NCBI GenBank assembly: GCA_028706735.1
Contig: JAQTVS010000061.1
Location: 1 to 11,590, forward strand
DNA: 11,590 nucleotides
Source: Thiomonas sp.
GTDB taxonomy: Bacteria; Pseudomonadota; Gammaproteobacteria; Burkholderiales; Burkholderiaceae_C
Direction: 5' to 3'
The notes beneath the pieces were generated by a model, which did not search any database, had not been told where the DNA came from, and saw only the letters and a list, made by a program, of their open reading frames with translations. Numbering within the stretch: position 1 is the stretch's first letter; every line of letters starts with the position of its first letter. Positions 1 to 11,590 of this stretch are shown one piece after another. Made by a program: the position numbers and the translations under genes.

Positions 1-2
1 CC

Positions 3-1829
3 GACTGGCGCGGGCGCGCGCACGCCACGGTGAAAACCCGCCCGCTGGCGTTTCACGCCATGCGCGGTCTGGCGGCGCATTCCAACGGCTTTCAGACCAT
101 CCGCGCGCTGTCCATTCTGATGAGCCTGCTGGGCACGATCGATGCGCCGGGCGGGTTCCGCCACAAGGCGCCTTACCCGAAGGACGTTCCGCCCGAGGTG
201 CGCAACCCGCGCGGCCCGCAGGATGTGCGGCCCAACACCCCGCTGAACGGCGCGCCGCTGGGCTGGCCGACTTCGCCGGACGACTTGGCGCTGATGGACG
301 ACGGCGGCCCGCTGCGCATCGACAAAGCCTTTTCCTGGGAATATCCGCTGGCGGTGCATGGGCTGATGCACAACGTCATCACCAATGCCTGGCGCGGCGA
401 CCCCTATCCCATCGACACCCTGCTGATCTTCATGTCCAACATGGCGTGGAACTCGGCCATGAACACCGTGGACGTGCGGCAGATGCTGCGCGACAAGCGT
501 GAGGACGGCAGCCACCGCATTCCCTTTCTCGTGGTGTGCGATGCGTTCCACAGCGAGATGACGGCGTTTGCCGATCTGCTGCTGCCCGACACCAGCTATC
601 TGGAGCGGCATGACGCCATGTCGCTGCTCGACCGGCCCATCTCCGAGTTCGACGGCCCGATGGACTCGGTGCGCGTGCCCGTGTTGCCGCCGCTGGCGCA
701 ATGCCGCCCGTTTCAGGAGGTGCTGGTGGAACTGGGCGGCCGGCTCGGGTTGCCCGCCTTTGCGGACGCAGATGGCCATCGCAAGTTCAAGGACTATCCC
801 GATTTCATCGTGCACTATGAAACCGCACCCGGCTCGGGCATCGGTTTTCTGTCGGGCTGGCGCGGGGCGGACGGCAGCAAATCGCTCAAGGGCGAGCCCA
901 ACCCGAAGCAGTGGGAGAGGTACGCGCAGAACAACTGCGTGCACTTCCACCACTTGCCAGAGTCGATGCACTACATGCGCAACTGGAACCGCGCGTATCT
1001 GGACTTCGCGCAGGAGCAGGGCTGGCGCGCGCGCAACACCCCGGTCATCGTCGGGCTGTATTCCGACGTGCTGCAGCAGTTCCGACTGGCAGCGCTGGGG
1101 CAGCGCCCCGGGCGGCAGCCGCCCGCGCACCTGCGCGCGCGCGTGGCGCATCACTTCGCCCCGCTGCCGTTCTGGGAGCCGCCGCTTGAACACGCCGCCA
1201 CCGATCTGGCGCGCTACCCGCTGGCCGCAGTGACCCAGCGCCCCATGGCGATGTACCACGCCTGGGATTCGCAGAACGCCTGGCTGCGGCAGATCCACGG
1301 CCACAACCGACTGTACGTCAACCCGGCGCTGGCACAGCAGCAGGGCATCGCCGACGGCGGCTGGCTGTGGATCGAGTCCAACTGGGGCCGGGCGCGCGCC
1401 CGCTGCCAATACAGCGAAGCGGTCGAGCCGGGGACGGTGTGGACCTGGAATGCCATCGGCAAGGCCAGCGGTTTCTGGGGGCTGCATCCGCGCGCCGAGG
1501 AGTCGCAGAGCGGTTTTCTGCTCAACCACCTCATCAGCGAAGAACTGCCAGGCGAGCCCCTGGGCGCGGGGGCAGGGCGGCTGTCCAATAGCGACCCGGT
1601 GACCGGGCAGGCCGGATGGTATGACGTGCGCGTGCGGCTGTTTCCGGCGGACGCGCCGCCGGAAACGGACGGCGCCCCACCGGGCCGCGCCAACCCGCGA
1701 GACGCCGCGCAAAGCTGGCCGCAATTCGACCCGCCAGCACCGCTGCCGCACAAGGCGCCGCACCTGCCGCAGATCAGTGTGCTGCGTTATTTCGCGGGAC
1801 GGTCGAACCGCAAAGGAAATCAGCCATGA
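3..1829 (+). CDS. soeA: Sulfite dehydrogenase (quinone) molybdopterin subunit SoeA, 3' part (5' end outside window)
   Basis: Catalytic subunit of a DMSO-reductase-superfamily molybdoenzyme, predicted to oxidise sulfite to sulfate in the cytoplasm. The frame is open from the first in-frame codon at 3, so the gene begins upstream. The GTG at 30 is an internal codon, not the start. About 608 C-terminal residues are visible of the roughly 950 usual for SoeA. The N-terminal [4Fe-4S] domain is therefore missing from view. Visible are the RGLAAHSNGFQT segment near 70-105, followed by LGTIDAPGGFR. The family segment AFADLLLPDTSYLER lies near 565-610. A C-terminal molybdopterin-dinucleotide-binding domain spans roughly 1240-1480 (AWDSQNAWLRQIHGHNRLYVNP). 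The last ~60 residues are Pro/Ala-rich. Its stop overlaps the soeB start as ATGA, so the two are probably translationally coupled. Other members of this superfamily (polysulfide, tetrathionate or thiosulfate reductases) are possible. The SoeA call rests on recalled family similarity plus the B and C partners. Confidence 0.85.
   Translation, partial: DWRGRAHATVKTRPLAFHAMRGLAAHSNGFQTIRALSILMSLLGTIDAPGGFRHKAPYPKDVPPEVRNPRGPQDVRPNTPLNGAPLGWPTSPDDLALMDDGGPLRIDKAFSWEYPLAVHGLMHNVITNAWRGDPYPIDTLLIFMSNMAWNSAMNTVDVRQMLRDKREDGSHRIPFLVVCDAFHSEMTAFADLLLPDTSYLERHDAMSLLDRPISEFDGPMDSVRVPVLPPLAQCRPFQEVLVELGGRLGLPAFADADGHRKFKDYPDFIVHYETAPGSGIGFLSGWRGADGSKSLKGEPNPKQWERYAQNNCVHFHHLPESMHYMRNWNRAYLDFAQEQGWRARNTPVIVGLYSDVLQQFRLAALGQRPGRQPPAHLRARVAHHFAPLPFWEPPLEHAATDLARYPLAAVTQRPMAMYHAWDSQNAWLRQIHGHNRLYVNPALAQQQGIADGGWLWIESNWGRARARCQYSEAVEPGTVWTWNAIGKASGFWGLHPRAEESQSGFLLNHLISEELPGEPLGAGAGRLSNSDPVTGQAGWYDVRVRLFPADAPPETDGAPPGRANPRDAAQSWPQFDPPAPLPHKAPHLPQISVLRYFAGRSNRKGNQP
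1640..1666. repeat. Perfect 11-bp inverted repeat inside the 3' end of soeA
   Basis: GTTTCCGGCGG (1640-1650) is followed by a 5-nt loop ACGCG and the exact complement CCGCCGGAAAC (1656-1666). It lies in the region coding for the Pro/Ala-rich C-terminal tail of SoeA. In mRNA it would form a stable GC-rich hairpin about 160 nt before the soeB start. No T-run follows, so it is not a standard intrinsic terminator. A role in mRNA processing or stability is only inference. Confidence 0.6.
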
Positions 1830-2644
1830 CCCAACTCGCCCTGGTCATCGACCTCAATGTCTGCGTGGGCTGCCATGCCTGCGTCACTTCGTGCAAACAG
1901 TGGAACACCTCGGGCGCGGCCGGTCCTCTCAGCGACCACGCCCCTTACGGCGAAGATCCGCTGGGCGTGTTTTTCAACCGTGTGCAGACTTATGAAGTGG
2001 GGCAGTTTCCGCACACGCAGACGGTGCATTTCCCCAAGAGCTGCCTGCATTGCGAAGAGCCGCCGTGTGTGCCGGTGTGTCCCACCGGCGCCTCGTACAA
2101 GCGCAAGGAAGACGGCATCGTGCTGGTGGACAGCGACAAATGCATCGGCTGCAAATACTGCGCGTGGGCCTGTCCCTACGGCGCGCGCGAGTACGACGAA
2201 GACCGCGGCGTGATGACCAAATGCACCCTGTGCGTCGATCGCATCTACGACGAGAGCATTCCGCAGGCGCAGCGCCGCCCGGCCTGCGTCAATGCCTGTC
2301 CCACCAACGCGCGGCTGTTTGGCGATGTGCATGATCCCGAGTCGGAGGTGTCGCGCGCCATCCGCGAGCACAGCGGCTATGCGCTCATGCCGGAACTCGG
2401 CACGCGGCCAGCCAACCACTATCTGCCCCGGCACATTCCGCAGGGCTCCGCGCCTGATTGCGGCCAAGCGCAGCCGGTGCAGCGCAACACGCCAGTCGCC
2501 GTATCGGCCGCGGCCTCAGCCCAGCGCACCGAAGCGGTGGAGGCCGCGGCCCTGGAAATCGAGGCCCGCAGCCTGTTCTCCCGGCTGTTTGGCGCGTTCA
2601 CCGGCAAGCCCGCTGGCGCCGCGGCGCAGCCGGTTGCGGAGTAA
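1826..2644 (+). CDS. soeB: Sulfite dehydrogenase (quinone) iron-sulfur subunit SoeB
   Basis: Electron-transfer subunit of the SoeABC complex (272 aa) with four [4Fe-4S] clusters, carrying electrons from SoeA to the membrane subunit. All sixteen ligand cysteines are visible in four groups: C13/C16/C19/C23, C73/C76/C81/C85, C106/C109/C112/C116 and C133/C136/C154/C158. This is the DmsB/PsrB-type ferredoxin pattern. There is no signal peptide, in keeping with a cytoplasmic enzyme. The ATG at 1826 overlaps the soeA stop (ATGA) and has an AAAGGA ribosome site about 8 nt upstream. Residues from about 205 to 272 form an extra tail. It starts Ala/Pro-rich and ends in an amphipathic-looking stretch (LEIEARSLFSRLFGAFTG) that may contact SoeC or the membrane; that contact is an inference. 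Confidence 0.9.
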   Translation: MTQLALVIDLNVCVGCHACVTSCKQWNTSGAAGPLSDHAPYGEDPLGVFFNRVQTYEVGQFPHTQTVHFPKSCLHCEEPPCVPVCPTGASYKRKEDGIVLVDSDKCIGCKYCAWACPYGAREYDEDRGVMTKCTLCVDRIYDESIPQAQRRPACVNACPTNARLFGDVHDPESEVSRAIREHSGYALMPELGTRPANHYLPRHIPQGSAPDCGQAQPVQRNTPVAVSAAASAQRTEAVEAAALEIEARSLFSRLFGAFTGKPAGAAAQPVAE

Positions 2645-2647
2645 GCC

Positions 2648-3580
2648 ATGCGTCCCGCGTTTTCCGTGTTGGTGCTCACCACCCTGGTGGGTTGTGCACA
2701 AGGCCTGGCGGTCGCCGTGGCGCTGCCCGCGTTGTGGGGCGTTGCGCATTCGGCCTCCTGGCTGGAGTTATGGCGTTTGAGTCTATGGATCATTCTGGGG
2801 CTCGGCGTCATTGGCCTGGGCGCGTCGTTCGCCCACCTTGGGCGGCCTGAGCGCGCCTGGCGCGCAGCGGCCATGTGGCGCACCTCCTGGCTGTCGCGCG
2901 AAGTCATCGCCTTGCCCGCTTTCCTCGGCATTGCCGCGCTCAGCCAGATTGCGCTGTTCAGCCTGCAAGGCTGGCCAGTCGTGCTGGCCGCGCTGCTCAT
3001 CGCGTCAGCCCTGGCGCTGTGGGTCTGCACCGCCATGATCTACGCTGGAGTGCGCTTTTTGCGCGAATGGGCCACGCCGCTGACGGTGCTGAATTTCCTG
3101 CTCATGGGTCTGGCCAGCGGTTGTCTGCTGGCCGCGTGCCTGGCGCTGTGGCGGCTCACTCCGCATGCGGTGCAGTATGGCCGCGCTGCGGCAGTGCTGC
3201 TGGCCCTTGCCCTGCTCGGGCGGCTGGCCGCATTGCTTCGGCTGCGCAATCTGGCCCCTGCGGGGTCGATGCAGACCGCCATCGGCGTTGCAAATCCGGC
3301 CATCCGCCAGACCTCCAAGGGCTTCACTGCGGGCGCGTTCAACACGCGGGAGTTTTTTCATGGCCGCAGCGCCGCGTGGGCGGCGGGCATGCGCTGGAGC
3401 TTTGTCCTGCTGGGTTTCGTGCTGCCGCTGCTGCTGGCGCTGCTGACCCCGCAAGCCCTGCGCGGCTTGGGCTGGCCGCTGGCGCTGGCGAGCAATCTGC
3501 TGGGCGCGCTGGCGGAACGCTGGGATTTTTTCGCCCAGGTGCGGCACCCGCAAAACCGCTATTACCAGGCCGCGTTGTGA
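2648..3580 (+). CDS. soeC: Sulfite dehydrogenase (quinone) membrane anchor SoeC (DmsC-like)
   Basis: Integral membrane subunit (310 aa) that anchors SoeAB to the cytoplasmic side of the inner membrane and passes electrons to quinone. Eight hydrophobic segments are visible, near residues 5-30, 41-63, 85-106, 110-133, 143-168, 178-197, 249-269 and 274-291. This matches the eight-helix DmsC family in number and length. The C-terminus (AERWDFF...HPQNRYYQ) is the usual end of DmsC-like anchors. The start ATG follows the soeB stop by 3 nt, with GGAG at 2638-2641 as ribosome site, so soeABC reads as one operon. An unrelated partner use (DMSO or polysulfide reduction) cannot be excluded from the anchor alone. 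Confidence 0.88.
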   Translation: MRPAFSVLVLTTLVGCAQGLAVAVALPALWGVAHSASWLELWRLSLWIILGLGVIGLGASFAHLGRPERAWRAAAMWRTSWLSREVIALPAFLGIAALSQIALFSLQGWPVVLAALLIASALALWVCTAMIYAGVRFLREWATPLTVLNFLLMGLASGCLLAACLALWRLTPHAVQYGRAAAVLLALALLGRLAALLRLRNLAPAGSMQTAIGVANPAIRQTSKGFTAGAFNTREFFHGRSAAWAAGMRWSFVLLGFVLPLLLALLTPQALRGLGWPLALASNLLGALAERWDFFAQVRHPQNRYYQAAL

Positions 3581-3635
3581 CCGATTGAAACCCCAGGGAA
3601 CGGCGACGCGCCCTTCGGCTCCATCCTCCTTTGAC

Positions 3636-3644
3636 GGGAGGGAG
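3636..3644 (+). promoter_or_regulatory. Strong ribosome binding site deciding the start of the LprI-like gene
   Basis: GGGAGGGAG ends 3 nt before the ATG at 3648, and its GGAGG core (3637-3641) is 6 nt away. It supports this start over the in-frame alternative at 3585. The same core is complementary to CCTCC at 3625-3629 across a 7-nt loop, so the site could be partly masked by a small hairpin. Confidence 0.6.
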
Positions 3645-3647
3645 ACG

Positions 3648-4055
3648 ATGCGGTGGCGTGTGATGCTGTGTGCAGTTTGGTGGACGTTTGGCTGGCTTGG
3701 ATCGGCGCAGGCCGCACCGGCGAACCCGCCGCCGCAGATCTGTCTGTCGCAGCCCGGCAGCGCGGCGTGTGCGGCCCAAACCCGGCAGGATCTCAATGCC
3801 CGCATGAATCACCTTTACCGGCGGGAAATGCGCAAGGTCATGGGCACTTACACTGAACGTCGGCTAGACCACGCGCAAACCCTGTGGCGGCGCTGGGCCA
3901 ATGCGGACTGCCTGTTCCGCAACGGCCCGCCCGGCCGGGGCGGACCGCAATGGCAAACCCGGCAGGATGGCTGTCTGTCAGACAAGATCCGCAGCCGCAT
4001 CGCGCAGCTTGATCGGTATGTGCACTGTGCCGGGGAGACTTGCCCACCCGGCTAG
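3648..4055 (+). CDS. Secreted cysteine-rich LprI/DUF1311-like protein
   Basis: A 135-residue protein with a Sec-type signal peptide: MRWR, a hydrophobic stretch at about 5-18, then AQA and a likely cleavage near residue 22. It is therefore probably periplasmic. The mature part resembles the LprI/DUF1311 family, which is named for a mycobacterial lysozyme inhibitor. It has C-x8-C, then DLNARMNHLYRREM, then RRLDHAQTLWRRWANADC, then a final conserved-looking RIAQLDRYVHC. Six cysteines remain in the mature protein (32, 41, 88, 109, 127, 132), suggesting disulfides. It lies 67 nt after soeC on the same strand and may share its transcript. Its TAG stop (4053-4055) lies within the CTAG left end of the repeat at 4052-4221. 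The family is a moderate-confidence call from the motif pattern. Function is unknown; lysozyme inhibition should not be assumed. Confidence 0.7.
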   Translation: MRWRVMLCAVWWTFGWLGSAQAAPANPPPQICLSQPGSAACAAQTRQDLNARMNHLYRREMRKVMGTYTERRLDHAQTLWRRWANADCLFRNGPPGRGGPQWQTRQDGCLSDKIRSRIAQLDRYVHCAGETCPPG

Positions 4056-4221
4056 GAGTCTGTCGGGCTTGGGAATCGCGGGCTGCAAAAAGGCTGTGTG
4101 GCGCCCTGCGGCAGCGGCTTTTTGCTCCATAGCTTGGGCTATGGGGCAGCAAATCCGCCGCCACAGGGCATCCCCACACCCTTTTTTCGCTCTACGCGCC
4201 CCAAGCCCGACAGGCTCCTAG
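4052..4221 (+). repeat. MITE-like palindromic repeat, subfamily A, copy 1
   Basis: A 170-bp non-coding element. Terminal inverted repeats lie at 4052-4073 and 4200-4221, with outer sequence CTAGGAGYCTGTCGGGCTT. The left end carries T where the other copies have C, the only mismatch between its two ends. The central palindrome is at 4124-4147 (GCTCCATAGC, loop TTGG, GCTATGGGGC). The two arms are also similar to each other when one is reversed, so the whole element can fold on itself. It differs from copy 4 at about 10 of 170 positions by eye. It overlaps the stop codon of the LprI-like gene and ends 40 nt before the next start codon. No internal gene is visible. Confidence 0.93.
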
Positions 4222-4249
4222 CAAGATGGCAACATCGACCGCTGAATCG

Positions 4250-4254
4250 AGGAG
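4250..4254 (+). promoter_or_regulatory. Ribosome binding site deciding the enoyl-CoA hydratase-like start
   Basis: AGGAG lies 7 nt before the ATG at 4262. An in-frame ATG at 4226 has no comparable site and starts only 4 nt after the end of the repeat. The downstream start is therefore preferred. Confidence 0.65.
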
Positions 4255-4261
4255 ACCTTTC

Positions 4262-5062
4262 ATGCAAAACCCAACGACTGACGAGAACGTCCTGCTGCGC
4301 GAAACCGATTCACGCGGCGTGGTCTGGCTCACCCTCAACCGTCCGCAGGCCTTCAATGCCTTGGCCGAGGCGTTGCTGGCGGCGCTGCAGCAACAGATCG
4401 ACGCGCTCATGCAGGATGACACGGCGCGCGTGGTCATCGTGCGCGGCGCGGGCCGGGCATTCTGCGCCGGACACGATCTGAAGGAAATGCGCGCCCAGCC
4501 CTCGCAGGCGTACTACCAGGCGCTGTTTGAGCGTTGCGGCAAGGTCATGACCGGGCTGATGCGCCTGCCGCAGCCTGTCATCGCCCAGGTGCACGGCATT
4601 GCCACTGCGGCGGGCTGCCAGTTGGTGGCAAGTTGTGACTTGGCGGTGGCCACGCAGGACGCGCGGTTTGCAGTGTCCGGCGTGAACTACGGATTGTTCT
4701 GTTCCACGCCCGGCGTGGCGTTGTCGCGCAATGTGCCGCGCAAGCAGGCCATGGAAATGCTGCTGACCGGCGAATTTATCGACGCCGCCACTGCGCAGCA
4801 ACGCGGCCTGATCAACCGGGTGACGGCGCCCGATGCGCTGGAGGCCGAGGTGGGCAAGCTGGCTGCCAGCATTCTGGACAAACCGGCCGCTGCGGTGCGG
4901 CTGGGCAAGGCGCTGTTTTACCGGCAGGCTGAAACCGGCATCGACGCCGCCTACCAACTCGCAGCGCAGACCATGACCTGCAATATGCTCGACGACTGCG
5001 CGCTGGAAGGCGTGCAGGCTTTCATCGACAAACGCCAGCCGACGTGGCGGGCCAAGGCATAG
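4262..5062 (+). CDS. Enoyl-CoA hydratase/isomerase family protein (ECHDC3-like), catalytic glutamates absent
   Basis: A 266-residue crotonase-fold protein expected to bind an acyl-CoA. The family core is clear. LTLNRPQAFNAL is near residue 24. FCAGHDLKEM (67-76) supplies the first oxyanion-hole element. HGIATAAGCQLVASCDLAVA (111-130) supplies the second. FIDAATAQQRGLINRV (172-187) is the usual later motif. In rat mitochondrial hydratase the two acid-base glutamates lie in GGCELA and PEILLG. Here the matching positions read GCQL (Q120) and VSGVNYG (G140), so both are missing. The pattern fits the ECHDC3-like branch, whose reaction is not well defined. Classical hydration of enoyl-CoA is therefore unlikely. 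The gene sits alone between repeats 1 and 2, with no beta-oxidation partner in the window. The family is certain; the reaction is not. Confidence 0.85.
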   Translation: MQNPTTDENVLLRETDSRGVVWLTLNRPQAFNALAEALLAALQQQIDALMQDDTARVVIVRGAGRAFCAGHDLKEMRAQPSQAYYQALFERCGKVMTGLMRLPQPVIAQVHGIATAAGCQLVASCDLAVATQDARFAVSGVNYGLFCSTPGVALSRNVPRKQAMEMLLTGEFIDAATAQQRGLINRVTAPDALEAEVGKLAASILDKPAAAVRLGKALFYRQAETGIDAAYQLAAQTMTCNMLDDCALEGVQAFIDKRQPTWRAKA

Positions 5063-5070
5063 GCCGACGC

Positions 5071-5269
5071 CTAGGAGCCTGTCGGGCTTTGGTCGTCGAA
5101 AGCGAAAATGGGGCCCAGCGAGGACAGTTTTTGCCGAATTTGCAGACCCATAGCCGCGCTATGGGTCAAAAAGACGGTGAAAACGAGCTTGCGATGTTTC
5201 GGCGTCGCCAAAAATGGACTGCTGCGCCCCATTTGCAGCCGACGATTCCAAAGCCCGACAGGCTCCTAG
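5071..5269 (+). repeat. MITE-like palindromic repeat, subfamily B, copy 2
   Basis: A 199-bp element between two convergent genes. It has perfect 22-bp terminal inverted repeats at 5071-5092 and 5248-5269 (outer part CTAGGAGCCTGTCGGGCTT, then TGG). It has a perfect central palindrome at 5145-5167 (GACCCATAGC, loop CGC, GCTATGGGTC). The ends and centre match copies 1, 3 and 4, but the arms are largely different and about 29 bp longer overall. It starts 8 nt after the stop codon of the hydratase-like gene. The PP2C stop codon (TAG on the minus strand, plus-strand 5266-5268) lies inside its right end. The hairpin could act as a terminator for both genes, which is an inference. Confidence 0.92.
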
Positions 5270-6102
5270 GCTCCCGGCGGAGGCAGGCGCACCAGGTCGA
5301 TGACGATGATCGACAGGTTGTCGCCGCGCCCGCCAGCGCGGGTGCGGGCCTTGTCGATGAGGTATTGGCAGCATTCGCGCGCCTGCAGCTTGGAGGTGGC
5401 GATTTCCAGATCCTGGTCGGTGAAGTAGTGCCACACGCCGTCACTGCACAGCATGAGCACATCGCCTGGGGCCAGCGCGCTTTCTTCCACGGGTTTGGGC
5501 GGCAGCTCCGACATGCCCAGGCTGCAGGTGAGCACATTGCTCATCGGGTGGCTGCGCGCCTTGGCTTCGGTGATTTCGCCCTTGTCCACCAGGGTTTGCA
5601 CATACGAGTCGTCCTTGGTGCGCAGCAACAAGCGGTCTTCGCGGAAGATGTACAGGCGGCTGTCTCCCACATGCGTCCAGTAGCAGCGGCCCTCATCGGC
5701 GTGGAACAGGGCGCAGATCACGGTGGAATGGGGTTCCTGCTCGGTGGACAGCGCGGTGAGGCGGATCATGCTGTGGCTCTCCTGCACGATCTGCCGCAGC
5801 AGGGCGTGCGGGTCGTCACTGTCGGGGTGGTAACGCTCGAAGAGTTGCTGCGCGGTGAGCATGACCTGATCCGCCGCCTTGCGCCCGCCGCTCTTGCCGC
5901 CCATGCCGTCTGCAATGACCGCGAGCACGCAGCCCGGCACGCGCGGATGTGCGATCACGCGCAACTGGTCCTGCTGATAGGGGCGATCGCCCTTGTGCAA
6001 GCCGCTTGCTGCATTCAACCGCCAGCGCGTCCCCGCCTGATGCTGCACGGGCTTGGGCAGCGGCGGCAGGCGGGACGGCGGATAGTGGTCTGTGGGGTCC
6101 AT
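5266..6102 (-). CDS. PP2C-family serine/threonine protein phosphatase
   Basis: A 278-residue soluble metal-dependent phosphatase predicted to remove phosphate from Ser/Thr residues. PP2C motifs appear in order from the ATG at 6102: GDRPYQQDQ (38-46, metal-ligand D45), VIADGMGG (62-69, D65), a THVGDSRLY block (143-151), LCSDGVW (218-224, D221) and GDNLSIIVI (260-268, D261). All expected metal-binding aspartates are present. There is no membrane segment or added sensor domain. The frame stays open upstream into the repeat at 6201-6371, but that part is repeat-derived and lacks homology, so the ATG at 6102 is preferred despite no clear ribosome site. The protein ends in PPPGA, and its TAG stop lies within repeat copy 2. 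No matching Ser/Thr kinase gene is in the window, so its substrate is unknown. Confidence 0.88.
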   Translation of the reverse strand: MDPTDHYPPSRLPPLPKPVQHQAGTRWRLNAASGLHKGDRPYQQDQLRVIAHPRVPGCVLAVIADGMGGKSGGRKAADQVMLTAQQLFERYHPDSDDPHALLRQIVQESHSMIRLTALSTEQEPHSTVICALFHADEGRCYWTHVGDSRLYIFREDRLLLRTKDDSYVQTLVDKGEITEAKARSHPMSNVLTCSLGMSELPPKPVEESALAPGDVLMLCSDGVWHYFTDQDLEIATSKLQARECCQYLIDKARTRAGGRGDNLSIIVIDLVRLPPPGA

Positions 6103-6200
6103 AGAATCGGCGGTTTGCCAGCGGTGTGCACGGTGTGTCTGGCTTGGCGGTGAGGCAACGCAGAGGGTGCGGATGAACGAGCAGTTGCAGTGGGCGGATT

Positions 6201-6371
6201 CTAGGAGCCTGTCGGGCTTGAGTCGCGTCAAGCGAAAAAATGGGTGTGGGGATGGCCTGTGGCGGCGGATTTGCCGCCCCATAGCTCAAGCTATGGGGCA
6301 AAAAGCCGTTGCCGCAGGACGCCGCACAGCCTTTTTGCAGCCCGCGATTCTCAAGCCCGACAGGCTCCTAG
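6201..6371 (-). repeat. MITE-like palindromic repeat, subfamily A, copy 3 (inverted)
   Basis: A 171-bp element in the opposite orientation to copies 1 and 4; its reverse complement aligns closely with copy 4. Perfect 22-bp terminal inverted repeats lie at 6201-6222 and 6350-6371. The central palindrome is at 6276-6299 (GCCCCATAGC, loop TCAA, GCTATGGGGC). The inner end of the terminal repeat reads CTTGAG/CTCAAG here against CTTGGG/CCCAAG in copy 4, so pairing is kept. It lies between divergent genes, 98 nt from the PP2C start and 20 nt from the helicase start. It may therefore sit in or next to the helicase promoter. Confidence 0.92.
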
Positions 6372-6391
6372 GCGGCGCGCAGGACAGGTGA

Positions 6392-8425
6392 GTGGCGCGC
6401 AGCAGCATGCACGCTGATTCCGCCGGGGCGCCGGCGCCCGACACCGCGCTGGCCGAACAGTGCGACGTGCTGTTCTCGCCGGGCAGCCCGCTGCAGGCCG
6501 AGCTGCCGCAGTGGTCGGTGCGCGAAGGGCAGCGTGCGCTGGCGCTGGCGGTGGCCTCTGCCATCAGCGACCGGGCCATTTTGTTGGCGGAGGCCGGCAC
6601 GGGAACCGGCAAGACGCTCGCCTACCTCGTTCCCGCGCTGCTGCATGGCGGGCGGGTGATCATCTCCACCGCAACACGCAACCTGCAGGATCAGCTCTAC
6701 ACCAAAGACCTGCCGGCCGCGCGCCGGGCGCTGGGCGCTGCGGTGAGCACCTGCGTGCTCAAGGGCCGCTCCAATTATGTTTGCCTCTACCGCCTGCAGC
6801 GTGCGGCGGAGTGGGTGCATGGCCGCCATGCGCATGCGCAGTTGCGCCGCATCGTGCAGTTCGCCAAGGCCGATGCGCGCGGCGACCTGTCCGCGCTGTC
6901 CGGGCTGGAAGAGAATTCCGCGCTCAATTTTCTCGTCACCTCGACCACCGACAACTGCCTCGGCGCGGATTGCCCGGATTACAAAGCCTGCTTTGTGATG
7001 AAGGCGCGGCGCGAGGCCATGGCGTCGGACGTGGTCATCATCAACCACCATCTGTTTTTCGCCGATCTGGCGCTGCGCGGCGAGGGCGTGGCCGAGCTGC
7101 TGCCCACCGCGGACACGCTGATTCTGGATGAAGCGCATCAGCTTGCCGAGATCGGCGTGCAGTTTCTCGGCGCGCGTTGCGGCACGGCGCAAGTGGTCGA
7201 CCTCAGCCGCGATGTGCTGGCGGGGGGCTTGCAGCATGCCAAAGGGCTGGCCGATTGGCAGACCCTGAGCGGCGCGCTGGAACGTGCCGCGCGCGATCTG
7301 CGCCTAGTTGCGCCGCAGGCGCCTGGCCGTCTGAGCCAGCCGCAGATGATCGACCTGCCTGGCTGGGATGTGGCCCTGCACGATCTGCAGGCGCAACTGG
7401 CCCACACCGCCGCCGTGCTGTCTGCGCATGAAGAAGCCGCACCCGAATTCGAGCGGCTGATGGAACGCTGCACCGCGCTGCAGCAGGCGTTCGGCAACTG
7501 GCAAAGCCCGGCAGTCGAGCGCGATGAGGGCGCCGCGCCCCAGGTGCGCTGGGCCGATGTCGGCAGTGCGCATCTGCGGCTGCAGTCCGCGCCGCTGTCC
7601 ATTGCCGCGGCGTTTGCCAACTTGCTGGCGCAGCGCAGCCAGGCCTGGATTTTCACCTCCGCCACCTTGAGCGTTGGCGGAAATTTTCGCCACGCACGCA
7701 CCGCCCTCGGCCTGACGCCAGAGCATGGCGGCTGCGCACCGGTGGAGCAGGGCGTTGCGCCGCGCTGCCGCGAATTGCGCGTGACCAGCCCCTTCGATTA
7801 CGCCGCGCAGGCCCGGCTGCTGGTGCCGCAAGATCTGCCGCTGCCCAACCAGCCGGGACATTCTGAAGCCGTTGGCGCGCTGGCGGCGCAACTGGCGGCG
7901 GGCAATGCGGGCGGCACCTTCGTGCTCACCACCACCTTGCGCGCCGCCAAGGTCATCGCGCAAACCCTGCGGCAATTGCTGCCTGGCCGGGCCGTGCTCG
8001 AACAGTTCGACGAATCCAAGCCCGCCTTGCTTGCGCGCTTTGCCGCCACTGCGCAGGCTGTGCTGGTGGGCAGCCAGAGTTTTTGGGAGGGGGTGGATCT
8101 GCCTGGAGACCGGTTGACCCTGGTGATCATCGACAAGCTGCCGTTTGCGCCGCCAGACGACCCGTTGACCGCGGCGCGCCTGCGGCAGATCGAAGCAGAA
8201 GGGCGCAGCGGCTTTACAGACTACAGCATGCCGCAGGCCGCGTTGTCACTGCAGCAGGGGGCCGGGCGGCTGATCCGCACAGAAACCGATCGCGGGGTGT
8301 TGGTGGTGTGCGACCGCCGCCTGACCGCGACGGGCTGGGGGCGGCAACTGCTCGCCAGCCTGCCGCCGTTCAGCCGGGTGAGCCGCGCTGAGGACGCGCA
8401 GGCCTTCTTGCAACAGATGCGCTGA
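6392..8425 (+). CDS. yoaA: Iron-sulfur ATP-dependent DNA helicase, YoaA/DinG family
   Basis: A superfamily 2, XPD-like 5'-3' DNA helicase (677 aa from GTG 6392) likely to act in DNA repair and replication-fork rescue. Walker A is AEAGTGTGKT (66-75) and the Walker B box is LILDEAHQL (243-251). The four [4Fe-4S] ligands are C131, C189, C194 and C200, the last three in TDNCLGADCPDYKACF. Motifs V and VI appear as SFWEGVDLPGD (about residue 565) and QGAGRLIRTETDRG (about residue 622). Length and these segments match E. coli YoaA more closely than DinG. In E. coli YoaA works with the clamp-loader protein HolC, which is not in this window. The start is uncertain: GTG 6392 has AGGACAGG just upstream, while ATG 6407 (MHADSAG) is also possible. 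The gene starts 20 nt after repeat copy 3. Confidence 0.88.
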   Translation: MARSSMHADSAGAPAPDTALAEQCDVLFSPGSPLQAELPQWSVREGQRALALAVASAISDRAILLAEAGTGTGKTLAYLVPALLHGGRVIISTATRNLQDQLYTKDLPAARRALGAAVSTCVLKGRSNYVCLYRLQRAAEWVHGRHAHAQLRRIVQFAKADARGDLSALSGLEENSALNFLVTSTTDNCLGADCPDYKACFVMKARREAMASDVVIINHHLFFADLALRGEGVAELLPTADTLILDEAHQLAEIGVQFLGARCGTAQVVDLSRDVLAGGLQHAKGLADWQTLSGALERAARDLRLVAPQAPGRLSQPQMIDLPGWDVALHDLQAQLAHTAAVLSAHEEAAPEFERLMERCTALQQAFGNWQSPAVERDEGAAPQVRWADVGSAHLRLQSAPLSIAAAFANLLAQRSQAWIFTSATLSVGGNFRHARTALGLTPEHGGCAPVEQGVAPRCRELRVTSPFDYAAQARLLVPQDLPLPNQPGHSEAVGALAAQLAAGNAGGTFVLTTTLRAAKVIAQTLRQLLPGRAVLEQFDESKPALLARFAATAQAVLVGSQSFWEGVDLPGDRLTLVIIDKLPFAPPDDPLTAARLRQIEAEGRSGFTDYSMPQAALSLQQGAGRLIRTETDRGVLVVCDRRLTATGWGRQLLASLPPFSRVSRAEDAQAFLQQMR

Positions 8426-8431
8426 GGCGGT

Positions 8432-9253
8432 TTACCAGAGCTTCCAGAACGGATCATTGCGGGACGGCAACCCCTGGGTGAGGTACGCGCTTTGCGGATA
8501 GTTGAGCTTGAGCACGCGCTCGGCGTCGTCGCGCAACTGCGTCATGCCGAGTTTGCCGTAGGCATGCACCAGCACCGCCAGCGCGAGCTGATTGGACGGC
8601 GCGTCCTGGTAATGATCGATGGCGCGTTGCGCGCGGTCGGCAGCAGCCACATAGGCGCCGCGGCGGTAGTAAAACAGCGCGACATGGGTTTCATACTCAG
8701 CCAGCGAGTTGACGATGTAGCGCATGCGCTGGCTGGCGTCCGGGGCATATTTGCTCTGTGGAAACCGCGTGACCAGTTCCTTGAACGCCTCAAACGACTG
8801 CTTGGCCGCACCCTGGTCGCGCTCATACAGCTTCTGGTCCGACAGGAAGGAGAACCAGCCCTGATCGGTATTGAAATTGATCAGGCCCTTGAGGTAGAGC
8901 ACATAATCGGTGTAGGGATTGTTGGGGTAGAGCTTGAGAAAGCGATCGGTTGCCGCCAGCGCCTGCGCGCGCTCACCCTGCTTGTAGTTGCCGTAGGCAA
9001 TTTCGATCAGCGCCTGCTGCGCCAACAGGCCGTAGGGGTAGCGGGATTCGAGCTTCTCGTACAGCTTCACCGCCTTGTCGGTGTTGCCGCTGTTCATCTC
9101 GTCCTTGGCCTCTGCATACAATTTGGCCGACGACCAGCCCAGGGTTTCGTCTTTTGCTGGCGTGGACGCGCAGCCCGCAAGGCCCAGAAACAGGGCAGCG
9201 GCGGCGGCGCCCAACAATCGCCGCGTCCAGAGACGGTACAACGCAACACGCAT
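8432..9253 (-). CDS. bamD: Outer membrane protein assembly lipoprotein BamD
   Basis: Essential lipoprotein of the BAM complex, which folds beta-barrel proteins into the outer membrane; it binds BamA from the periplasmic side. The 273-residue product has a lipoprotein signal peptide: positively charged MRVALYRLWTRR, a hydrophobic run, then lipobox LAGC with the acylated C28. The rest is a series of TPR-like helical repeats (for example AVKLYEKLESRYPYG and AKQSFEAFKELVTRFPQSKYAPDA) typical of BamD/ComL, at the usual family length. It is divergent from rluD, the same arrangement as in E. coli. Its stop lies only 6 nt from the stop of the convergent helicase gene. The residue after the lipid cysteine is Ala, consistent with outer-membrane sorting. 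Confidence 0.95.
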   Translation of the reverse strand: MRVALYRLWTRRLLGAAAAALFLGLAGCASTPAKDETLGWSSAKLYAEAKDEMNSGNTDKAVKLYEKLESRYPYGLLAQQALIEIAYGNYKQGERAQALAATDRFLKLYPNNPYTDYVLYLKGLINFNTDQGWFSFLSDQKLYERDQGAAKQSFEAFKELVTRFPQSKYAPDASQRMRYIVNSLAEYETHVALFYYRRGAYVAAADRAQRAIDHYQDAPSNQLALAVLVHAYGKLGMTQLRDDAERVLKLNYPQSAYLTQGLPSRNDPFWKLW

Positions 9254-9315
9254 AGCAATGACCCAGGGTGGTGTAAAGCTTGCAGATTATAGGGAGCCCC
9301 CTGCGCCCCGCCTCC
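9254..9315. promoter_or_regulatory. Divergent bamD-rluD intergenic region
   Basis: This 62-nt gap must hold the start signals for both genes. GATTAT at 9285-9290 is a possible -10 box for rluD, with no convincing -35 at the right spacing. AGGGAG at 9291-9296 is the only purine-rich ribosome-like site before the rluD ATG, but it is about 19 nt away, farther than usual. No clear operator is seen. Confidence 0.3.
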
Positions 9316-10359
9316 ATGACCAACCTTTCTTCTCTTCCCCCTGCTCATGCGAGGGACGGTGAACTCGCCGACCTCGATGAGGACGGCTCCAGCGCCGACC
9401 AGGCCGTGCTCGAAGCCGTCATCCCCGAGCCTGAGGCGGGACAGCGGCTCGACAAGGTGCTGGCGGCGCTGTTCCCGCAATACTCCCGCAGCAGATTGCA
9501 GCAATGGTGCGAAGCCGGGCTGGTGCGCATGGGCGCGCAGATCGCCGGGGTGCGCGACAAGGCGCGGGCGGGCGAGCTGCTGCGCATTGCCGTGCCCGCC
9601 TTGCCGGAAGACGCCGCGTTCGCTCCCGAAGAGATGCCGCTGGATGTGGTGTTTGAAGATGCGTCACTCGCCGTGATCAACAAGCCGGCCGGTCTGGTGG
9701 TGCACCCGGCTGCTGGCAACTGGAGCGGCACCCTGCTCAACGGCCTGCTGGCGCGCTACCCCGAGACCGCTGGACTGCCGCGCGCCGGCATCGTTCACCG
9801 GCTGGACAAGGACACCAGCGGCCTGATGGTCACCGCCCGCACTCTGGAAGCGCAGACTGAACTGGTGCGCAGGCTGCAGGCCCGCACCATGCACCGGCAA
9901 TATCTGGCGTTGGTCTGGGGGCGGGCAGACAGACTGTTCAATGTGGATGCGCCCATCGCCCGCCACCCGCGCGACCGCCTGCGCATGGCGGTGGTGCAGG
10001 GCGGCAAGCCTGCCCGCACCGATTTTGCCCCGTTGGCCGAGCTCGACACGCCCTGGGGGCCGCTGACCGCGCTGCGCTGCAAGCTCCACAGCGGACGCAC
10101 GCATCAGATCCGCGTGCACCTGCAGTTTGCCAAGCTGGAACTGGTGGCCGACCCGGTGTATGGCGGGCGCGTCCGTCCCGATCTGCCCCTGCAACGTCAG
10201 GCGCTGCATGCCGCGCGGCTGGGGTTTCGCCACCCCGGCAGCGGTGCGCCGTTGGACTGCGTTGCTCCCGTCCCGGACGACATCGCCGCATTCTGGGACG
10301 CCTGCGGCGGCGCGCCAGAAGACATCGCCCCCAAGCGCTGGCCGGTGTTTACAGATTGA
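9316..10359 (+). CDS. rluD: 23S rRNA pseudouridine synthase RluD
   Basis: Converts uridines of 23S rRNA helix 69 (positions 1911, 1915 and 1917 in E. coli numbering) to pseudouridine, aiding large-subunit maturation. The 347-residue product has an N-terminal S4 RNA-binding domain at about 43-75 (RLDKVLAALFPQYSRSRLQQW). The RluA-family catalytic domain follows, with INKPAGLVVHP at about 121 and HRLDKDTSG at 161-169, where D164 is the catalytic aspartate. GRTHQIRVHLQ is also present toward the C-terminus. The acidic segment at about 15-35 before S4 is specific to the N-terminus. The start ATG is chosen on homology; an in-frame TTG at 9280 lacks support. pgeF starts 13 nt after the stop, as in the conserved rluD-pgeF pair, so the two are probably one operon. 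Confidence 0.93.
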   Translation: MTNLSSLPPAHARDGELADLDEDGSSADQAVLEAVIPEPEAGQRLDKVLAALFPQYSRSRLQQWCEAGLVRMGAQIAGVRDKARAGELLRIAVPALPEDAAFAPEEMPLDVVFEDASLAVINKPAGLVVHPAAGNWSGTLLNGLLARYPETAGLPRAGIVHRLDKDTSGLMVTARTLEAQTELVRRLQARTMHRQYLALVWGRADRLFNVDAPIARHPRDRLRMAVVQGGKPARTDFAPLAELDTPWGPLTALRCKLHSGRTHQIRVHLQFAKLELVADPVYGGRVRPDLPLQRQALHAARLGFRHPGSGAPLDCVAPVPDDIAAFWDACGGAPEDIAPKRWPVFTD

Positions 10360-10372
10360 GGCCATCAACGCC

Positions 10373-11233
10373 ATGTCACTCAGCCTTCCGCAATGCACGG
10401 ATTTCCTGCCGCCCTGGTGCGCCGATTCCTCTGGCGTTGCGCCCTGGGTTCGGGTCGCCTGGCCGGGCAACCCGCGGGTTCACGCGGTGTTCACCAGTTG
10501 CGCAGGCGGGGTCAGCCAGGGCGCCTATGCCTGCGCGCAAGCGGCTGAAGCAGGGCAGACGCCGACCGGCGGCGGCATGAACCTTGGATCGCATGTCGGC
10601 GATCTGCCCGAGCAGGTTGCGCAGAACCGCCAGCGTCTGCAACAGGCGTTCGCGGGCGTGCAGCCACGCTACCTGCAGCAGGTTCACGGTGTGGAGGTTG
10701 CCGATCTGGACGCGCTGCCCGATCCATTCGCCGAGCCAGCCGCTGATGCGGCCTGCAGCACCCGTCCGGGCGTGGCGGCCACCGTGCTCGTTGCCGACTG
10801 TCTGCCCGTGCTGTTTGCCGCGCCGGACGGCCGCGCCGTGGCGGCGGCGCATGCCGGTTGGCGCGGTTTGGCGGGCGGCGTGCTGGAGGCCAGCCTGCAA
10901 GCGGTCTGCGTGCGCGCGGGCTGCGCGGCGTCCGCGGTGCAGGCGGTCCTTGGCCCGGCCATCGGCCCGCAGGCATTCGAGGTGGGGGAGGAGGTCTGGG
11001 CGGCGTTTGTCGGGCAACACGCCCAGACTGCAGACGCGTTCAAGCCGGGCAAGCCCGGAAAATGGCGGGCCGACATCTGGCAACTCGCACGCATCCGGCT
11101 CGAGCATGCGGGCATGCGCCCCGATCTGATCGCCGGGGGAGGGCTGTGCACCGTCAGCAACCCGCAGCGCTTTTATTCTTACCGCAGGCAGGCGGTCACC
11201 GGACGGCAGGCGGGTTGCGTCTGGATCGGCTGA
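10373..11233 (+). CDS. pgeF: Peptidoglycan editing factor / purine nucleoside phosphorylase PgeF (YfiH/YlmD family)
   Basis: A 286-residue member of the YfiH/DUF152 multicopper-like fold family. Members have been linked to correction of mis-built peptidoglycan precursors in E. coli and to purine nucleoside phosphorolysis. The metal-site residues are visible: H105 in QQVHG, C143 in VADCLPV and H160 in AAHAGWRG. They are followed by GPAIGPQAFEVG and the final RFYSYRR. The segment TSCAGGVSQGAYA (41-53) is separated from MNLGSHVGD (69-77) by about 15 residues, longer than the near-contiguous form typical of the family. Start ATG 10373 has only a weak GAGG at 10358-10361, overlapping the rluD stop, which fits coupled translation. 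Confidence 0.9.
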   Translation: MSLSLPQCTDFLPPWCADSSGVAPWVRVAWPGNPRVHAVFTSCAGGVSQGAYACAQAAEAGQTPTGGGMNLGSHVGDLPEQVAQNRQRLQQAFAGVQPRYLQQVHGVEVADLDALPDPFAEPAADAACSTRPGVAATVLVADCLPVLFAAPDGRAVAAAHAGWRGLAGGVLEASLQAVCVRAGCAASAVQAVLGPAIGPQAFEVGEEVWAAFVGQHAQTADAFKPGKPGKWRADIWQLARIRLEHAGMRPDLIAGGGLCTVSNPQRFYSYRRQAVTGRQAGCVWIG

Positions 11234-11258
11234 GTTTGTCCCTGAAGCGTGGACATGC

Positions 11259-11271
11259 CCGCACAGTGCGG
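11259..11271. repeat. Short dyad after pgeF
   Basis: CCGCACAGTGCGG is a perfect 13-bp dyad (6-bp arms around a central A) in the 68-nt gap between pgeF and repeat copy 4. It lacks a following T-run and its loop would be small, so it is weak as a terminator. It could be an operator-like site or chance. Confidence 0.3.
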
Positions 11272-11301
11272 TCTGGCACACATCCGCGCAACCTTCATCT
11301 G

Positions 11302-11471
11302 CTAGGAGCCTGTCGGGCTTGGGAATCGCGGGCTGCAAAAAGGCTGTGCGGCGTCCTGCGGCAGCGGCTTTTTGCCCCATAGCTTGGGCTATGGGGCGGC
11401 AAATCCGCCGCCACAGGCCATCCCCACAGCCTTTTTTCGCTTGACGCGACCCAAGCCCGACAGGCTCCTAG
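11302..11471 (+). repeat. MITE-like palindromic repeat, subfamily A, copy 4
   Basis: A 170-bp element in the same orientation as copy 1. Perfect 22-bp terminal inverted repeats lie at 11302-11323 and 11450-11471. The central palindrome is at 11374-11397 (GCCCCATAGC, loop TTGG, GCTATGGGGC). It lies between two convergent genes, 68 nt after the pgeF stop and 3 nt from the stop of the minus-strand partial gene. Both arms carry AAAAAGGCTGTG-like and CCTGYGGCRGCGG-like blocks in inverted order, so the whole element forms an imperfect long hairpin. No gene lies inside. Confidence 0.93.
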
Positions 11472-11474
11472 TGG

Positions 11475-11590
11475 TCAACCCGTCCGACGTTTGAGGTCGC
11501 GCACGATGAGCACCCAGATGCCGTCATCCCCGCTGCGCTGCCCTTTCCTGCAGGACAGTACTTCGGCATAGACGAACTCTGTCCGGTCGG
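11475..11590 (-). CDS. Unidentified protein, C-terminal fragment (5' end outside window)
   Basis: Reading the minus strand from the window edge gives an open frame of 37 codons ending at a TGA at 11475-11477. It contains TEFVYAEVLSCRKGQRSG, then DDGIWVLIVRDLKRR and TG. The mix of hydrophobic strands and charged residues, and the WVLIVRDLKRR end, faintly resemble the last strand of a PAS-type sensor domain. The fragment is too short to name. Its stop lies 3 nt from repeat copy 4, echoing the close fit of the other repeats to gene ends. It could be a chance frame, but its length to the edge and coding-like composition argue for a real gene end. Confidence 0.5.
   Translation of the reverse strand, partial: DRTEFVYAEVLSCRKGQRSGDDGIWVLIVRDLKRRTG

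Follow-up and report, generated by a model that had tools for sequence, protein, structure and literature searches.

Bacterial miniature inverted-repeat transposable elements (MITEs) are usually described from one strain, genus or family. The REP/BIME sequences are intergenic high-copy palindromes too, the REPs being about 20-40 nt long, associated with RAYT enzymes and devoid of long terminal repeats. Among the insertion sequences (ISs), some IS1182-family members target palindromes, and IS1272 replaces stem-loops, as described in the available part of PMC5678879. The window analyzed here, an 11,590-nucleotide stretch of Thiomonas sp. (contig JAQTVS010000061.1, positions 1 to 11,590), holds four copies of a repeat that an initial annotation of this DNA had called MITE-like, an interpretation supported by our results. 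On balance, we think it probable that these are non-autonomous MITEs mobilized by an IS1182-group transposase, and that their single-stranded fold has been selected in the lineages in which they spread. The conserved strand-specific interior, which is new here and was absent from that annotation, is the more unusual part.

All four annotated copies were confirmed, and they lie in both orientations (Table 1). The terminal inverted repeats have the stated 22 bp and are perfect in copies 2-4; in copy 1, base 8 is mismatched (T on the left, C on the right); the central CCATAGC/GCTATGG palindrome is seen in every copy. The annotation had also predicted many copies genome-wide. Allowing up to 2 mismatches, we counted 63 + 58 occurrences of the 15-base end GAGCCTGTCGGGCTT in the 2.93-Mb genome, compared with 9 + 15 of its reversed control; for GAGCCTGTCGGGCTT plus CTAG, the counts were 50 + 48 and 0 + 0. 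A 19-base end is present in 10 of 13 genus genomes, while the control matched by chance in two genomes, once each. We built a covariance model of the interior, R1, from 21 elements trimmed of their terminal repeats; because R1 excludes the terminal repeats, these can be used as an independent check. Of the 59 R1 matches in the own genome, 9 re-read other matches in antisense, which leaves 50 places, far more than the four copies of the window. Six congeners gave 20, 23, 20, 2, 2 and 1 matches, and six other congeners examined gave none; the 96 R1 rows of the genus, less 4 antisense and 2 cut by contig ends, make up the 90 genus copies used below. Element lengths in the own genome range from 105 to 222 bp, including variants of 190-222 bp and 105-108 bp. 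Short derivatives with the same ends are seen at L033:1501-1606, L041, L049 and L308 (105-108 bp in the own genome), and G003 and G001, which carry the autonomous IS described below, have short forms and no R1 match.

The family extends well past one genome: it is at least class-wide and is found in other classes as well ("class," "family" and "phylum" being kinship labels assigned to the sampled genomes). An exact-end scan of public genome contigs yielded at least 119 stretches, of which 80 were examined; R1 (E up to 1e-5) matched 37 of these 80, among them 20 of the 63 loci outside model training, some of which share assemblies with model members. Carriers by R1 include Extensimonas, Hydrogenophaga, Massilia, Nitrosomonas, Sulfuricella, Endozoicomonas, Billgrantia, Dyella and Pseudomaricurvus, and two assemblies labelled Deltaproteobacteria and Desulfuromonadales. 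In even samples, R1 matches were found in 46 of 398 genomes of the phylum, with 37 in one family of another class, and in 84 of 369 genomes (69 of 272 genera) of the class; both counts are probably lower bounds, as few candidates per genome were scored and the filters were strict. Two single-contig genomes of other families hold 47 (G524) and 81 (G750) matches. Terminal repeats of the same type stand at both ends in 29 of the 30 phylum-scan matches examined (out of 35 printed), often as a matched variant pair such as CTAGGAGGCTGTCCGAGAA, with L245 among the 29 quite divergent; they are absent at L160, a weak R1 match. The same holds at both ends for 16 of 16 new class representatives. Across distant hosts the element is mostly 167-170 bp long, with exceptions of 148-207 bp. 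The same terminal repeats also enclose other interiors of 56, 118, 152 and 156 bp (L127:5449-5504, L112:6221-6338, L148:1043-1194, L166:4728-4883), partly in assemblies labelled other phyla, where contamination is possible.

The target could be read from empty sites. At the place of copy 3, the relatives G006, G008 and G012 have an empty site with exactly one CTAG; copy 1 is absent at the corresponding place in relatives with an aligned left flank, and at copy 2 the relatives have a short gap without the element. We read the empty targets of copies 1 and 2 in G008 as ATAG and CTAC. Over 142 ends, the four bases of CTAG are kept in 131 (C), 109 (T), 125 (A) and 139 (G) cases; because the fourth base is the best kept, the element may begin at that G and duplicate only TA. 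The duplication is either CTAG (4 bp) or TA (2 bp), and both this boundary profile and the IS of G064 (see below) favour TA. Terminal CTAG decays mostly to CCAG, CTGG and CAAG with the flanking GAG kept (G000, G002, G004, G005), a pattern that could be mismatch-directed loss of CTAG. Elements that adjoin or share a terminal CTAG (L250, 1003-1132 and 1167-1297 in R1 coordinates; L022, 1648-1681) suggest that the ends of one element can act as the target of the next.

The intergenic placement given in the annotation was borne out, with the refinement that at copies 1 and 2 the outer CTAG carries the neighbor's stop: the TAG of an LprI-like gene (4053-4055) falls within that of copy 1, and the TAG of a PP2C-like gene on the minus strand (5266-5268) within that of copy 2. 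In the genus, the terminal CTAG, once decayed to CTAC, carries a neighbor's stop in 10 of the 90 copies, plus copy 1. CTAG has a density of 0.16/kb in coding and 1.03/kb in intergenic sequence, and its scarcity in genes, together with selection, can explain the location of the elements. Gene contexts are approximate, having come from a home-made gene caller that missed at least one gene (LprI at copy 1), and the gap classes rest on 71 genus copies, the 90 less 6 with a flagged overlap with a predicted gene and 13 located at a contig edge. Gaps between convergent genes are enriched, with 19 of 71 copies against 15 of 139 background gaps; IS1182 is itself among the families over-represented between convergent genes according to the available part of PMC9208149. 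Together with the copies that begin at a stop codon and the strong RNA fold described below, this enrichment would suit a host regulatory RNA, in which the hairpin serves as an mRNA-end terminator, stabilizer or RNase III site, compare YPAL, ERIC and Correia. We consider that quite unlikely, because despite a strand-specific fold the elements show no preferred orientation to their neighbors (3' ends 38:31, 5' ends 32:28, tandem gaps 17:19), copy numbers vary among congeners, and the sites are empty in relatives. A cis-acting mRNA element was rejected on the same ground: with gene orientation unbiased, action in a neighbor's mRNA is unlikely.

A full-length element with a transposase and the same ends, for which the annotation had suggested a search, was found in the IS1182 family. 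In the congener G001, an element of 1,610 bp bounded by CTAGGAGACTGTCGGACTT and CTAGGAGGCTGTCGGACTT encodes an IS1182-family transposase (NF033551, 352 bits; cut-off 270); G003 has five IS copies of 1,620-1,621 bp in five different flanks with CTAG on both sides, one with a broken frame. The own genome has one such IS (contig C111, 90% protein identity) near a contig end, with a single terminal repeat visible. In four other families, ends of this type also bound homologues of the transposase with 58-67% identity (G538, G550, G494, G701 and Methylotetracoccus among those examined); for a 57% identical homologue in G736, our script placed no ends. In G064, where the transposase is about 30% identical, the two ends of the IS do not differ, and they match 18 of 19 bases of the variant CTAGGAGGCTGTCCGAGAA that MITEs carry in other genomes of this host family; the only deviating base is the C of CTAG, and the MITE listed for G064 itself ends in GATAA, not GAGAA. 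This IS (L366:1340-3090) sits mid-palindrome (GAACCACCTA/TAGGTGGTTC) instead of at CTAG. G001 also has a second IS1182-family element (G001:C2, e.g., L071; 10 equal-scoring places), with a transposase 42% identical; in L071, such a terminal repeat was not found.

The elements of the window are thus short, non-coding and multicopy, share their ends with an autonomous element, and show empty sites and a target duplication. At six IS loci, they share no subterminal sequence with the IS beyond the terminal repeat, the ends diverging after about 19 bp. Since the autonomous IS lacks the interior, the element is not a simple internal deletion of the IS. The 3' noncoding stretch of the IS, which at 168-173 nt in three ISs had looked suggestive as an origin of the element, was rejected: in other cognate ISs it measures 131-180 nt and folds otherwise, and R1 found no match where tested.

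The interior is a conserved hairpin, usually about 168 bp, with conserved internal loops. All four copies fold end to end as one hairpin, with RNA minimum free energies of -116.6 to -122.5 kcal/mol (plus strand). In the consensus structure of the 21-element alignment, 92.3% of cells are paired, and compensatory change is seen at 30 of 49 pairs, the letters varying while pairing is kept. Doubly changed cells number 187, compared with 64 ± 6 in shuffled alignments and no more than 56 in a control with slid partners, in which the structure is favored because it was derived from the same 21 sequences. On the R1- strand, opposite to the model, we read the internal loops as tandem G.A motifs, such as GGAC opposite GGAC. 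No Rfam family matches the window at gathering score, and no known RNA family could be assigned at Rfam thresholds. In relaxed searches with 12 element loci, two group II intron matches appeared beside one element (L137:6141-7058, Nitrosomonas assembly) and the rest were sub-threshold; a single one of these fell on an element, that of L470, which scored 29.1 bits (E = 0.011) with an animal-type microRNA hairpin model whose gathering score is 100. Carriage by a plasmid or phage was rejected, as copy 4 had no match in plasmid and phage collections.

The two strands of this hairpin are not equivalent. We assembled 140 elements (31 of 72 exact-end-scan rows, 30 of 36 phylum-scan rows and 79 of 90 genus copies), leaving out antisense, cut-off and weak rows, own-genome and contig-edge matches, and genus copies lacking either end; from these, 45 representatives of at most 85% identity were drawn, and isolated stem mismatches were counted by an orientation-neutral self-complement alignment. 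Were complementarity maintained on double-stranded DNA, the two members of each mismatch pair would be expected equally often. On the R1- strand, G.U was found 92 times against 17 for A.C, G.A 109 against 7 for C.U, and G.G 27 against 6 for C.C; counting each column pair once on the model strand gave A.C in 37 and G.T in 16 (p = 0.005). R1- had the lower folding energy in all 45 representatives with RNA parameters and in 44 with DNA parameters. A new set, drawn from 56 of 68 class-scan rows (antisense excluded) and reduced to 16 representatives by removing similar ones, again gave G.U over A.C (31:7) and G.A over C.U (34:1), with the lower energy on R1- in 14 of 16. R1 should be biased against this asymmetry, since it was built on the other strand and its pair rules tolerate G.U. 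Strand-specific wobble pairs and G.A mismatches thus occur together with covariation, as in a structured RNA or possibly a folded single-stranded DNA. RNAalifold with G.U forbidden kept only 14 pairs for the 45 representatives (A.C 29, G.T 7), and the self-complement count was used instead.

A mutational strand bias was rejected as the cause of the A.C excess, as recent single-copy changes in seven families are balanced overall (C>T 50, G>A 51), though at paired sites they number 38 and 49. Old mismatches differ from those of recent copies (Fisher p = 2.6e-4 for all isolated mismatches; p = 0.03 for the rare ones only, A.C 59 versus G.T 17), and long-term filtering is the likelier main cause of the asymmetry. 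It is also conceivable that these are ordinary MITEs of IS1182 in which arm complementarity is maintained on the DNA, through cruciform recognition by the transposase or template switching from one arm to the other, and that the asymmetry is an inherited accident. The replacement of stem-loop targets by IS1272 (IS1182 family; available part of PMC5678879), the position of the G064 IS in a palindrome center, the even orientation of the copies relative to genes (tandem gaps, 17:19), and the mild lean of recent copies in the same direction as the old mismatches (52:34, p = 0.07) would all fit. Such maintenance predicts G.T equal to A.C and G.A equal to C.T, whereas the model strand shows 17:92 and 7:109, repeated on new sequences, and G.T in fewer column pairs than A.C; template switching should, moreover, erase the conserved internal loops. 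We therefore regard it as rather unlikely.

Since one strand is favored, the hairpin might instead be the substrate of an HUH enzyme, with the element moving as single-stranded DNA during replication in the manner of IS200/IS605 or REP/RAYT. Such lagging-strand elements show a strong replication-orientation bias. Here, the counts are 20:21 in the own genome (41 copies), 7:13 in G002 (20 copies), 17:26 in G524 (43 of 47) and 26:38 in G750 (64 of 81), so that the folded strand is only slightly in excess on the C-rich side (98:70) and the bias is weak. That the fold is strand-specific and stands on a tetranucleotide, and that DNA-parameter energies favor the same strand (44/45), would fit this type of mobility; terminal repeats in common with an IS of the DDE type and a duplicated target would not, and we consider it very unlikely.

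Based on these findings, we propose the following scheme for the preferred reading of IS1182-mobilized MITEs. An IS1182-group transposase would recognize, in trans, the ends (G)GAGNCTGTCGGACTT and insert the element at CTAG, which would be duplicated (equally readable as duplication of the central TA). With CTAG scarce in coding sequence and in some cases containing a TAG stop, copies would land between genes and could leave the neighbor's stop intact. Since complementarity is kept on one specific strand, selection in spreading lineages would act on a folded single strand, most likely of RNA and not of DNA, while individual copies decay; as the copies decay and the fold persists across families, the fold would serve propagation of the element rather than the host.

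Several observations weigh against this scheme. The partner is inferred from matching ends and target and not from strong co-occurrence: of the 369 class genomes, 6 have a close cognate transposase, and the element occurs in 3 of them and in 81 of the 363 others (p = 0.13), and in the phylum any IS1182 transposase is present in 12 of 46 carriers against 47 of 352 others (p = 0.03), most carriers being without a close cognate. R1 with filters off gave chance-level scores on the six IS loci (best E = 1.2), which speaks against a simple internal deletion. The 45 representatives share ancestry, and their 45 lower energies are non-independent; further pair types, one of five covariation measures, number 66 against 61.6 in shuffles, a value reached by 56 of 500. 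Besides the lean of the recent copies, recent changes at paired sites are uneven (G>A 49 versus C>T 38; T>C 14 versus A>G 4), and some mutational lean may lie behind the strand pattern. The replication orientation of the four genomes pooled, 70:98, reaches p = 0.04. Finally, the folded RNA is a prediction from sequence, and its promoter, transcript and protein partner are hypothetical.

A stronger form of the proposal, possible though doubtful, is that a passenger of about 168 nt borrows IS1182 ends and can spread only by means of an RNA or single-stranded DNA folded in a strand-specific way. An RNA or hairpin supplied by the passenger would then be required for DNA transposition, as a minimal counterpart of the bridge or omega RNAs encoded by ISs; to our knowledge, no such RNA has been described for the IS1182 transposon family. 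The mismatch pattern implies single-stranded selection in the passenger of a DDE transposon, which standard double-stranded cut-and-paste leaves unexplained. The ends, target, cognate transposase and fold together offer a testable system, and the covariance model can be used for annotating intergenic repeats.

By Pfam, the neighbor genes in the window encode a molybdopterin oxidoreductase with ferredoxin and DmsC-like subunits, LprI, an enoyl-CoA hydratase, a PP2C/SpoIIE phosphatase, a helicase (DEAD, Helicase_C_2), YfiO, a pseudouridine synthase and a Cu-oxidase_4 protein.

Table 1. Element copies and their terminal inverted repeats (TIRs) in the window; orientation is that of R1 for copies and the strand for repeats.
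Feature	Position	Orientation	Length (bp)	R1 score (bits)	Conserved folded strand	Basis and overlap
Copy 1	4052..4221	+	170	96.7	minus	
Copy 1 left TIR, incl. CTAG	4052..4070	+				sequence; overlaps LprI-like TAG stop
Copy 1 right TIR	4203..4221	-				sequence
Copy 2, long variant	5071..5269	-	199	74.8	plus	
Copy 2 left TIR	5071..5092	+	22			sequence
Copy 2 right TIR	5248..5269	-	22			sequence; overlaps PP2C-like TAG stop
Copy 3	6201..6371	-	171	85.7	plus	
Copy 3 left TIR	6201..6222	+	22			sequence
Copy 3 right TIR	6350..6371	-	22			sequence
Copy 4	11302..11471	+	170	93.8	minus	
Copy 4 left TIR	11302..11323	+	22			sequence
Copy 4 right TIR	11450..11471	-	22			sequence

The annotation had matched the repeat to no named family, and our searches agree: besides the Rfam, plasmid and phage comparisons, the end sequences were not found in a repeat context in the titles and abstracts listed (40 of 44 in one search), and a topic-wise literature search found no description of the element family among the papers listed, with ISfinder and most subscription journals lying outside both searches. 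The family is apparently uncatalogued. In the parts of PMC2229807 and PMC2759123 available, the Yersinia repeat YPAL/RU-2 is likewise about 167-168 bp, palindromic, intergenic and mobile, with targets at or near dyads. It is published without terminal inverted repeats and with duplications of 3-26 bp (PMC2229807, in part), in contrast to the 22-bp repeats and CTAG flanks found here, and the RU-2 sequence printed in the available part of PMC2759123 has no CTAGGAG repeats at its start or end. YPAL was accordingly rejected as the same family: its length is equal, its published definition does not fit, and it is set apart by description. ERIC, Correia/NEMIS and RUP are also short non-coding palindromic MITE-like repeats, but by their description in the same two sources, again in part, they have other sizes, TA termini and one bacterial group each. 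The R6 repeat of Pseudomonas fluorescens (177 bp, 34-bp inverted repeats, 50 copies, intergenic) may be kin to the elements, likened only by its description in the available part of PMC2718517. With the IS1182 family, finally, the elements share ends of the type (CTAG)GGAGNCTGTCGGACTT and the CTAG flanks of the cognate group, while encoding no transposase and having an interior without a match to the IS; IS1272, in the accessible account, is reported to replace its target without duplication, whereas here one CTAG becomes two. Compared with these systems, what sets the present family apart is the class-wide recurrence of a single architecture whose internal loops are conserved and for which Rfam, at its thresholds, has no match.

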